29,552 nucleotides of DNA. Source: a virus. The stretch is from positions 1 to 29,552 of the IMG/VR virus record IMGVR_UViG_3300006350_000190. One strand, 5' to 3'. Each line of letters starts with the position of its first letter. The first letter of the stretch is position 1. Under the pieces are notes generated by a model. That model was not told the origin of the DNA. It ran no database searches and was given only the letters and a program-made list of their open reading frames with translations. Positions 12,895-25,886 of the stretch are shown here, piece after piece. A program made the translations under genes and the position numbers.

Positions 12895-13094
12895 TAGTCG
12901 TAGATACCGTACGGTGTTAAATCATAATAAGGAGTTTCTAATGGTTCACCCTTACGAGGTGTTGGTTCACCTATCTTTGCTAAGATATCAGCAGGTATTT
13001 TCTTCTGACTAATATCATAAGGTATGGGTGCATTTGCTACACATACCCTTACACATTCCCACTCTTCTTCTGTGAGGTCATAGTTAGTCATCAT
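12894..13094 (-). CDS. hypothetical small protein
   Basis: This 66-residue protein begins with two in-frame ATGs (MMTNYDLTEEEWECVRVCV). The first half is acidic and helical with two Cys; the second half is Pro/Tyr-rich (GEPTPRKGEPLETPYYDLTP). The start overlaps the upstream gene by 11 bases and the end overlaps the downstream gene as TAATG. Function unknown. Confidence 0.65.
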   Translation of the reverse strand: MMTNYDLTEEEWECVRVCVANAPIPYDISQKKIPADILAKIGEPTPRKGEPLETPYYDLTPYGIYD

Positions 13095-24254: not shown

Positions 24255-24493
24255 TATCCTTGATCCTTAATCAAAAAATGTTTTTTGATCACTGATACTT
24301 GATCTTCATACTTAGCAATCATGTTTAGTTCTTCTTCAATTGCTTCCATAACATTTGAATGCTCACCTATACCAACAGGATTCTTTAGGTACACTTCGAC
24401 ATTCATCTTATGCTTTTGGATATCTCCTTGTGCATGTGCTAGGAGTGCTGAGACTATCTGATTTCTCATGTGTATACTGTAATCGTCATACAA
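24254..24493 (-). CDS. small helical protein upstream of ho1
   Basis: This 79-residue protein has a helical composition (HMRNQIVSALLAHAQGDIQK; VMEAIEEELNMIAKYEDQVS). It follows a CTAAATACT late-promoter motif and is coupled to ho1 by TAATG. M9 is an alternative start. No family is recognised. Confidence 0.7.
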   Translation of the reverse strand: MYDDYSIHMRNQIVSALLAHAQGDIQKHKMNVEVYLKNPVGIGEHSNVMEAIEEELNMIAKYEDQVSVIKKHFLIKDQG

Positions 24494-24499
24494 TTATAC

Positions 24500-24508
24500 A
24501 GTATTTAG
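24500..24508 (-). promoter_or_regulatory. late promoter of the ho1 block
   Basis: Minus strand CTAAATACT lies 7-15 bases before the 24493 ATG and is followed by TATAATTG. It is the same 9-mer as upstream of gp18. The very short leader, or the M9 start of the gene, should be considered. Confidence 0.55.
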
Positions 24509-24517
24509 AATTCTTTG

Positions 24518-24625
24518 TCAACTCTCAAACTTTTCGTTCATCATAACTTTCATCACAACCACGAAGATGGTAGTGAGTGTAGCAGTACCTGCTGCTATCT
24601 CGATGAACATTATAAGTGGGTTCAT
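24518..24625 (-). CDS. tiny single-pass membrane protein
   Basis: A 35-residue frame (MNPLIMFIEIAAGTATLTTI, then FVVVMKVMMNEKFES) is one membrane helix plus a short charged tail. The start overlaps the upstream stop as ATGA. Function unknown. Confidence 0.6.
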   Translation of the reverse strand: MNPLIMFIEIAAGTATLTTIFVVVMKVMMNEKFES

Positions 24626-24774
24626 TTCTTTGGATACAACCTCGATATTTTTTCTTTACGAATCTTTTCTTTATTTCTTCTCTCTTCTACCTTCTCATCC
24701 CACCACTTAACAGGCCACCTTTGAAGTTTCAAGGCAGCAATCCATAATTTTTTTCTGGGAAGGTGAAATTTCAT
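24622..24774 (-). CDS. small very basic protein
   Basis: A 50-residue product (MKFHLPRKKLWIAALKLQRW, then many K, R and E) starts at the ATG 24772-24774, which overlaps the preceding stop as ATGA. A longer in-frame start at 24813 would run through the upstream gene and is unlikely. It may bind nucleic acid or membranes. Function unknown. Confidence 0.6.
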   Translation of the reverse strand: MKFHLPRKKLWIAALKLQRWPVKWWDEKVEERRNKEKIRKEKISRLYPKK

Positions 24775-24872
24775 ATCATACCTAGAGAACCTGCAGTGAA
24801 TCCCACTGCACAAAAGAATGCAAACTCATAGAGTGCATAGTATGGACTATTGAAAAACGAATTGACCTGCAT
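24771..24872 (-). CDS. tiny membrane protein
   Basis: A 33-residue frame (MQVNSFFNSPYYALYEFAFF, then CAVGFTAGSLGMI) is one hydrophobic helix. It overlaps the previous tiny frame by 26 bases and the next by ATGA. The chain of couplings supports it being real. Confidence 0.5.
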   Translation of the reverse strand: MQVNSFFNSPYYALYEFAFFCAVGFTAGSLGMI

Positions 24873-24921
24873 TGGTGTATGTGTATAGTGCTACTGTGAG
24901 TAAGAAAGTGATTTGATACAT
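24847..24921 (-). CDS. tiny ORF, possible membrane peptide
   Basis: A 24-residue frame (MYQITFLLTVALYTYTNAGQ) starts with TAATG coupling to the upstream gene. It is short and overlaps the next frame, so it may be a real micropeptide or only a ribosome bridge. Confidence 0.4.
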   Translation of the reverse strand: MYQITFLLTVALYTYTNAGQFVFQ

Positions 24922-25091
24922 TATGATCCTTGGTAAACTGGAGACATTAACCCACCACCTTGATCATCATCGTCATCTCCATCAGATGCTCTCATGATTA
25001 ACTCAAAGAGTACGAGTGTAGCAAAAGGATAGAAGCACCAAAGAATGGCTGCAAAAGGTGATATTTCGTGTGTGGCAGCAAGATCGCCCAT
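24921..25091 (-). CDS. small membrane protein with Asp-rich tail
   Basis: A 56-residue product has one membrane helix (about 12-33, PFAAILWCFYPFATLVLFEL) followed by SDGDDDDDQGGG and a short hydrophobic end. It follows a CTAAATACT motif and is coupled by TAATG to the next frame. Small membrane proteins of this type are frequent beside hli genes in cyanophages, but I cannot name it. Confidence 0.65.
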   Translation of the reverse strand: MGDLAATHEISPFAAILWCFYPFATLVLFELIMRASDGDDDDDQGGGLMSPVYQGS

Positions 25092-25114
25092 ATGTATTAA
25101 GATTTGTTACTAGA

Positions 25115-25123
25115 AGTATTTAG
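25115..25123 (-). promoter_or_regulatory. late-promoter motif of the tiny-gene chain
   Basis: Minus strand CTAAATACT lies 24-32 bases before the ATG at 25091, in the 56-base gap after the hli operon. It would let the tiny-gene chain be transcribed late, apart from the hli genes. Confidence 0.65.
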
Positions 25124-25147
25124 TTTTGTAAAGTTTTAGGTGAGTAA

Positions 25148-25237
25148 TTATACCAGTACACCCATAGGGATAGCAGAAATAACTGCCACCATAAAGATGT
25201 ACGGTACAACTTTCAAGGGTACTGGTACGCTTTTCAT
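25148..25237 (-). CDS. 29-residue membrane peptide at end of hli operon
   Basis: The frame MKSVPVPLKVVPYIFMVAVI, then SAIPMGVLV, is a single membrane helix with a basic N-terminus. It starts as TAATG at the stop of the last hli gene and keeps the coupling pattern of the operon. It resembles in style the tiny subunits of photosynthetic complexes, but no specific match is claimed. Confidence 0.5.
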   Translation of the reverse strand: MKSVPVPLKVVPYIFMVAVISAIPMGVLV

Positions 25238-25359
25238 TACACGTAACCAGGAATGATTTGACCTGTTGTTAGGTAAGCACCTAAACCTGCGATGATGCCG
25301 AGCATAGCAAGTCTGCCATTAAATTTCTCAGCAATAGTTTTTTGTTCTTTATCTGTCAT
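25237..25359 (-). CDS. hli: high-light-inducible protein
   Basis: A 40-residue product carries the chlorophyll-binding helix motif EKFNGRLAMLGIIAGL followed by TTGQIIPGYV. Hli proteins sit in the thylakoid and protect photosystems by binding chlorophyll and carotenoid. The start is the ATG 25357-25359, which overlaps the upstream hli stop by one base (TAATG). It is the fourth hli of the operon. Confidence 0.85.
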   Translation of the reverse strand: MTDKEQKTIAEKFNGRLAMLGIIAGLGAYLTTGQIIPGYV

Positions 25360-25466
25360 TAGAAAATACCTGGTATGATTTGACCTGTTGTTGCGTATGC
25401 ACCGACTGCTGCTACGAAACCTAGCATTGCTGCCCATCCATTAAATCTTTCTGCTTCTGGTGTCAT
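25359..25466 (-). CDS. hli: high-light-inducible protein, variant lacking the motif arginine
   Basis: A 35-residue product has the Hlip motif with NGWAAMLGF in place of the usual NGRxAMxGF, so the arginine that pairs with the helix glutamate is missing; Glu is kept upstream. It ends TTGQIIPGIF, the tail shared with two neighbours. An in-frame ATG 15 codons earlier (25511) would add a segment encoded by a heptamer repeat; the AAGG ribosome site favours the shorter form. Confidence 0.8.
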   Translation of the reverse strand: MTPEAERFNGWAAMLGFVAAVGAYATTGQIIPGIF

Positions 25467-25483
25467 GATTGAGTTACCTTTTT

Positions 25484-25504
25484 GAATTGTGAATTGTGAA
25501 TTGA
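25484..25504. repeat. three-copy heptamer direct repeat
   Basis: GAATTGT occurs twice, followed by GAATTGA, in tandem between two hli genes. Slippage during replication is the likely origin. Confidence 0.7.
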
Positions 25505-25515
25505 ATTTCATCTCT

Positions 25516-25629
25516 TTAAAAGAGACCTGGTGCTATCCATCCGAATAGACCATAGTTGATAGTGCCGATCACTAGACCGAGCATTGCGAGACGACCATTG
25601 ATCAACTCTGCGTTCTTCCAGTAGTTCAT
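25516..25629 (-). CDS. hli: high-light-inducible protein
   Basis: A 37-residue product (MNYWKNAELINGRLAMLGLV, then a short helix ending GLFGWIAPGLF) has the canonical Hlip motif ExINGRLAMLG. Its tail differs from the TTGQIIPG tail of the other three. It starts as TAATG at the end of the first hli gene. Confidence 0.88.
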   Translation of the reverse strand: MNYWKNAELINGRLAMLGLVIGTINYGLFGWIAPGLF

Positions 25630-25826
25630 TAGAATATACCTGGAATGATTTGTCCTGTGGTGATGTAGGCACCTAATAGTGCAACAAAACCAACCATTGC
25701 CCAACGACCATTGACTTTCTCAGCGTTCTGAGGATAGCCTTCGTAGGACACAGACTCATCTATGTAAGGACGGGTCTCGTTTGGGAAAGCATTTTGTCTT
25801 CCACCTGATTCAGTAGTAACTGTCAT
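25629..25826 (-). CDS. hli: high-light-inducible protein, first of operon
   Basis: A 65-residue Hlip has a polar N-terminus (MTVTTESGGRQNAFPNETRP) and the motif AEKVNGRWAMVGFVALLGAY, then TTGQIIPGIF. I use the ATG 25824-25826; a longer frame from 25886 would start inside the promoter. A strong sigma70-type promoter lies about 30 bases upstream, so this operon is probably expressed early by host polymerase. Acquisition from a cyanobacterial host followed by duplication is likely. Confidence 0.92.
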   Translation of the reverse strand: MTVTTESGGRQNAFPNETRPYIDESVSYEGYPQNAEKVNGRWAMVGFVALLGAYITTGQIIPGIF

Positions 25827-25856: not shown

Positions 25857-25886
25857 ATTATATATACAAGTATTAAGTTTTGTCAA
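25857..25886 (-). promoter_or_regulatory. sigma70-type promoter of the hli operon
   Basis: Minus strand TTGACA (25881-25886) and TATAAT (25857-25862) are both perfect consensus hexamers with an 18-bp spacer. Transcription would start about 20-25 bases before the first hli ATG. It is the strongest host-type promoter in the window and lies divergent to the plus-strand secreted-protein genes. Confidence 0.88.

Follow-up and report, generated by a model that had tools for sequence, protein, structure and literature searches.

What holds ten very small genes together in one tightly coupled chain, and do all of them belong to the same membrane module? The window analysed here, the 29,552 nucleotides of IMG/VR record IMGVR_UViG_3300006350_000190, is a 29.6 kb viral contig from a T4-like cyanophage whose closest matches in the structural part are P-RSM6 and P-TIM40. 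On its minus strand (25826-24518), ten small frames follow one another in the order hliA, hliB, hliC, hliD, p29, p56, p24, p33, p50 and p35, confirming the chain described in the first-pass annotation, namely four hli genes and then frames of 29, 56, 24, 33, 50 and 35 codons. With moderate confidence, we read the ten frames as one early-type unit of Hli proteins and membrane peptides, in which p50 would be a passenger microgene that changes gene joints by recombination at ATGA and is kept for a role in trans.

The coupling claimed for the chain was likewise found. Six joints overlap by one base (hliA/hliB, hliC/hliD, hliD/p29 and p56/p24) or four bases (p33/p50 and p50/p35), the overlap of p24 with p33 spans 26 bases, and gaps separate hliB from hliC and p29 from p56, the genes forming one coupled unit. 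None of 1000 dinucleotide-preserving shuffles of the region reached the six linked starts observed (mean 0.18, maximum 3). Coupling per se is routine in this phage, and by our own count four-base overlaps occur in about nine of the window's 30 other same-strand neighbour pairs; the unusual part is the series of tiny genes. The unit is flanked by two perfect sigma-70-like promoters, one upstream of hliA and the other beginning at the end of p35, and the ten genes are therefore probably one transcription unit. Comparable TTGACA/TATATAxT pairs lie 5′ of hliA in P-HM2, P-HM1, MED4-213, L010, L011 and L045 (L numbers denote the loci compared), and the promoter consensus suggests that the chain is of early type.

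Iterated profile searches found the frames in the same order in the uncultured relatives L010 and L011, all except p50 in L021, and part of the set in P-HM2, P-HM1, MED4-213, P-SSM4 and others; the frames are intact in relatives, and the disruption that the first-pass annotation named as counter-evidence was not seen. The ratio of nonsynonymous to synonymous substitution rates (dN/dS) is 0.06-0.23 in frame in every family tested (hliA, p29, p56, p24, p33, p50 and p35), compared to 0.5-3.1 for the same sequence pairs in the other two frames, and 0.08-0.44 in a wider pooled set; the pairs are not independent, and the p24 value comes from four sequences. Judged from these comparisons, the ten small frames are real genes under purifying selection. 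The suggestion that such genes are overlooked applies to p29, p24 and p50, which are unannotated in or missing from the isolate records inspected, and not to the hli genes, p56, p33 and p35, which are already annotated in P-HM2 and P-HM1 (hli as T4-GC 436/267, p56 as T4-GC 437, p33 and p35 as 594/554 and 556).

Nine of the ten products look membrane-embedded, the exception being p50. The expectation of mostly single membrane helices thus holds for most members and fails for p50, whose best 19-residue hydropathy is -0.26 and whose net charge is +12. It is not a membrane subunit, and it is not tied to this operon in particular. Its AlphaFold model has two helices (residues 7-18 and 27-46) around a conserved WPVxWWD, with a mean predicted local distance difference test score of 80 and a predicted template modelling score of 0.36. 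The family ranges from 44 to 65 codons (135-198 bp); p50 as query found 60 loci in IMG/VR, and the family alignment as query found 116 places.

The neighbours of p50 change from phage to phage. Among 82 contigs we counted 25 neighbour pairs, in which 22 different genes lie downstream of p50, and 17 of the pairs recur in at least two contigs. Depending on the contig, p50 adjoins tail-fibre-like, zinc-ribbon-like, gp47-like or psbN-like genes, homologues of p87 and p96, or others (names other than p87, p96 and psbN-like are our reading of the sequences). The p50 tree requires at least 28 context changes, and the sites fibre/MINAW, gp/MTLF and 77aa/p87 were apparently colonised more than once, although support in the tree is weak in places. 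Proteins from different sites can be 92-100% identical. These contexts bear on the possibility that all ten genes make up one thylakoid-membrane module, in whose complex p50 would be a basic subunit at the periphery. Such an arrangement would agree with the operons of the window, L010, L011 and L030, where p50 is coupled on both sides, but it seems improbable given the tail-fibre, gp47-like, zinc-ribbon and psbN-like neighbours elsewhere and the presence of the operon without p50 in the close relatives L021, L012 and L022.

The gene p50 has codon-exact borders. DNA identity between copies from separate sites is high across the reading frame and falls to background right past the stop codon. 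Inside the gene, the copies of L080 and L086 show 4 mismatches in 139 bases, and beyond it their identity is 16%; the same sharp border is seen in L085 against L086 and in L046 against L040. Compared with L029, the p50 of the window is 88% identical inside, 24% upstream and 28% downstream. Within the gene, similarity forms a mosaic, suggesting that copies have recombined with one another; L046 is near-identical to L077 or L040 in one half and diverged in the other, the near-identical partner switching between halves. Normally p50 starts within ATGA and ends in AATGA, overlapping the stop codon of the gene before it and the start codon of the gene after it. Counted by context, a four-base overlap lies downstream in 19 cases and upstream in 15, and a one-base overlap lies upstream in three.

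Relatives give empty and occupied joints at base level, which argues that p50 moved and not its neighbours. At the p33/p35 joint, the empty site of L021 reads ..CTATGAACTTAACCC, and the occupied site of L011 reads ..CTATGAAATTT[p50]AAATGAACCCACTCC. At the KPKKT/p96 joint, L026 is empty (..GATCATGAATTTTATAG) and L029 is occupied (..GACATGAAACTT[p50]AAGAAATGAATTTTATC). The fibre/MINAW joint is empty in L172 and L182 and occupied in L059 and L061; the joint between the psbN-like gene and the next gene is empty in L295 and occupied in L077; and the zinc-ribbon/MRIE joint is empty in L333 and holds p50 in L040, with a small change at the end of the upstream gene. The window itself has an empty site at its psbN-like joint, which is occupied in the collinear contig L087. 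This site follows a psbN-like gene (13293-13084, minus strand, tail ..DPWDDHDD). The joint looks variable, other relatives having different genes before the same downstream gene. Cyanophage genomes are mosaic, with movable gene cassettes (PMC3037559), so that p50 might instead have stayed in place while shuffled gene order brought it different neighbours. At five junctions, however, the flanking genes are already adjacent in relatives where p50 is absent, and p50 identity stops at codon borders; we regard shuffling around a static p50 as very improbable.

A dedicated enzyme acting in trans, such as a homing endonuclease or transposase encoded elsewhere in the genome, could also recognise gene joints and carry p50 there. 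T4 often carries its homing endonuclease genes as cassettes that lie between genes, coupled and without a promoter (PMC2988022), and the same joint has been occupied repeatedly by different p50 lineages. Against this, no nuclease or transposase accompanies p50 in the neighbourhoods read, and a search for fixed inverted-repeat ends found none, only ATGA on the left and AATGA on the right recurring across contexts; we consider an enzyme in trans unlikely. In addition, p50 matches no nuclease family (GIY-YIG, HNH or other) in Pfam, PHROGs or NCBIfam. RNA folds of two units, examined for a stable structure or for the attC hairpin of an integron gene cassette, were not consistent with each other (z 0.34 and -2.06).

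Each contig examined carries p50 once, and no further copies were found in contigs of 199, 188 and 121 kb. At the sensitivity used, no member of the family turned up among 50,697 phage records, and tblastn with two family members against isolate phages gave, up to E 10, chance-level matches only, the one in P-HM2 lying inside a large annotated frame. No match among solved structures was found, nor any published description in the literature searched. The single occurrence in bacterial genomes is a 188 kb contig (L087, G017:C10, NZ_RMVE01000006.1) in the Nonlabens xiamenensis 1Q3 assembly, which carries p50 at the psbN-like joint; since its major capsid protein is 97% identical to that of the window, this contig is a cyanophage (cyanomyovirus).

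We propose that the unit supplies four Hli proteins together with several membrane peptides of one helix each, with stop-start couplings handing ribosomes on from gene to gene. The promoterless, cationic p50 would be a passenger, present once per phage genome at a joint that differs between phages. It may enter by phage recombination at the ATGA common to overlapping gene ends, turning geneA-ATGA-geneB into geneA-ATGA-p50-ATGA-geneB, so that ATGA is repeated and both neighbours are left readable. Expression would then come through the neighbours, by termination and reinitiation. No well-matched promoter was found directly 5′ of p50 in the window. In L055, L070, L068, L069 and L134, p50 lacks an upstream coupled gene and begins with GTG right after TATAAATA, which we take to be a T4-type late promoter sequence. 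With neighbours that differ so widely, p50 must be expressed at different times in different phages, as would suit a product acting in trans. Retention could reflect the action of its two-helix peptide in trans, and we favour a small effector against the host or rival phages, as constraint and position independence suggest.

Several points weigh against this reading. Eight of the neighbour pairs come from one contig each, and in some contexts ATGA is missing from one side of p50. Insertion was deduced by comparison. Borders of the ATGA type could also arise if selection keeps only insertions that spare both neighbours.

The remaining members of the chain are largely of known cyanophage small-gene families, and the mobile microgene inside it is the unexpected part. 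The hli genes, p56, p33 and p35 can be assigned to known families. All four Hli proteins match the phage Hli profiles PHROG 178 and 20629 (E 7e-6 to 2e-28) and share the motif E-x-x-N-G-[RW]-x-A-M-x-G, read by eye, and they score 14.7-21.5 bits against the Pfam chlorophyll a/b-binding domain (cut-off 22.3), as a single short helix would. HliA also has a weak match, under the cut-off (E 0.004), to the NCBIfam model for Psb34, a photosystem II assembly protein. A 50-residue form of hliC from 25511 is possible, and the P-HM2 copy is annotated as the 35-residue form. Both homology and position beside hli04 in the P-HM2 and P-HM1 neighbourhoods place p56 in T4-GC437, and p24 has only weak matches in isolates. 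Hydropathy supports a membrane helix in p29, p56 and p35, and more weakly in p33 and p24. No profile of a known small photosystem subunit in Pfam or NCBIfam matched the membrane peptides. The thylakoid reading is partly supported by the nine membrane-embedded-looking products and the known families among them; for every non-Hli member, a role in thylakoid complexes is putative. Downstream of the chain, the second promoter precedes p79, heme oxygenase and p87, which, given its position at the p35 end, are probably a separate unit. The frame of p79 (24493-24254, minus strand) is listed from TTG, and the L087 homologue suggests ATG at 24469 as the true start (71 residues).

Table 1. Features of the ten-gene chain and related sites in the window.
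Feature	Position	Strand	Evidence
Sigma-70-like promoter TTGACA-18-TATAAT, upstream of hliA	25857..25886	-	12/12 consensus match
hliA, Hli protein, 65 residues	25629..25826	-	PHROG 178 E 2e-28; dN/dS 0.06
hliB, Hli protein, 37 residues	25516..25629	-	PHROG 178 E 4e-13; 97% identity to P-HM2
hliC, Hli protein, 35 residues	25359..25466	-	PHROG 178 E 4e-20; 100% identity to P-HM2
hliD, Hli protein, 40 residues	25237..25359	-	PHROG 20629 E 2e-20
p29, single-helix membrane peptide, unannotated	25148..25237	-	96.6% identity at unannotated P-HM2 site; dN/dS 0.23
p56, T4-GC437 family, one membrane helix and acidic tail	24921..25091	-	PHROG 7843 E 9e-26; PHM2_202; dN/dS 0.19
p24, hydrophobic peptide, unannotated	24847..24921	-	conserved in L010, L011, L021, L030, L009; dN/dS 0.23 (4 sequences)
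p33, membrane peptide, PHROG 17067	24771..24872	-	E 6e-8; at PHM2_203, PHM1_204; dN/dS 0.17
p50, roaming cationic microgene, 50 residues	24622..24774	-	viral contigs: 60 loci (p50 query), 116 places (family alignment); 25 neighbour pairs among 82 contigs; dN/dS 0.19
p35, membrane peptide, at PHM2_207 (T4-GC556)	24518..24625	-	dN/dS 0.21
Second sigma-70-like promoter TTGACA-17-TATAAT, begins at p35 end	24493..24521	-	12/12 consensus match
Empty p50 site between psbN-like gene and next gene	13084..13094	-	occupied in collinear Nonlabens contig (L087), 84% identity over 8.8 kb

Altogether, tiny coupled cyanophage genes are real, and p50 lets one see, base by base, how a new gene is taken into a phage genome where a stop and a start codon overlap. 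Should ATGA joints serve as entry points in general, the modularity of phage genomes would extend to joints of four bases, and part of the many unannotated microgenes in ocean viruses may be a mobile pool. Widespread in uncultured cyanophages and not found in the isolate collection searched, p50 is a candidate trans-acting anti-host or anti-rival peptide.

Compared with known systems, the chain resembles the hli clusters of P-HM2 and P-HM1 (T4-GC267/436, PHROG 178, with T4-GC437), with which it shares the order of four hli genes and p56, and p33 adjoins these genes in part of that group. However, p29, p24, p33, p50 and p35 continue as one chain in the window, whereas P-HM2 lacks p50 and has p35 at another place. 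As for p50, the free-standing homing endonuclease genes (seg, mob) found in T4-like phages are also promoterless, coupled to the upstream gene and located between conserved genes in only some relatives (PMC2988022), and p50 is likewise a coupled passenger between conserved genes for which empty alleles exist. It differs from them in its 44-65 codons, its lack of a nuclease family match, its many more sites and its exactness to codon borders. The mycobacteriophage MPMEs are ultra-small mobile phage DNA found, like p50, at different sites in close relatives, but MPME1 is 439 bp long, ends in inverted repeats, comes with a 6-bp addition and is able to interrupt genes (PMC3029335), whereas p50 has 135-198 bp, no such ends, and spares its neighbours. 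Morons, too, are extra genes in one phage and absent from a relative; they typically bring a promoter and a terminator (PMC3029335), whereas p50 usually relies on the coupling of its neighbours. Cyanophage mobile cassettes hold several larger genes (PMC3037559), in contrast to the single microgene p50. Since it has no nuclease match and no MPME-type ends, and since the cassettes are larger and multi-gene, p50 is not placed under homing endonucleases, MPMEs or cyanophage cassettes. We tentatively suggest that it could represent a new class of mobile gene, a single frame of 44-65 codons that uses its own start and stop codons (ATGA...ATGA) as recombination ends and hops between overlapping joints without its own enzyme, leaving the neighbours unharmed. 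Set beside these systems, p50 behaves like a very small mobile gene without a known means of moving.
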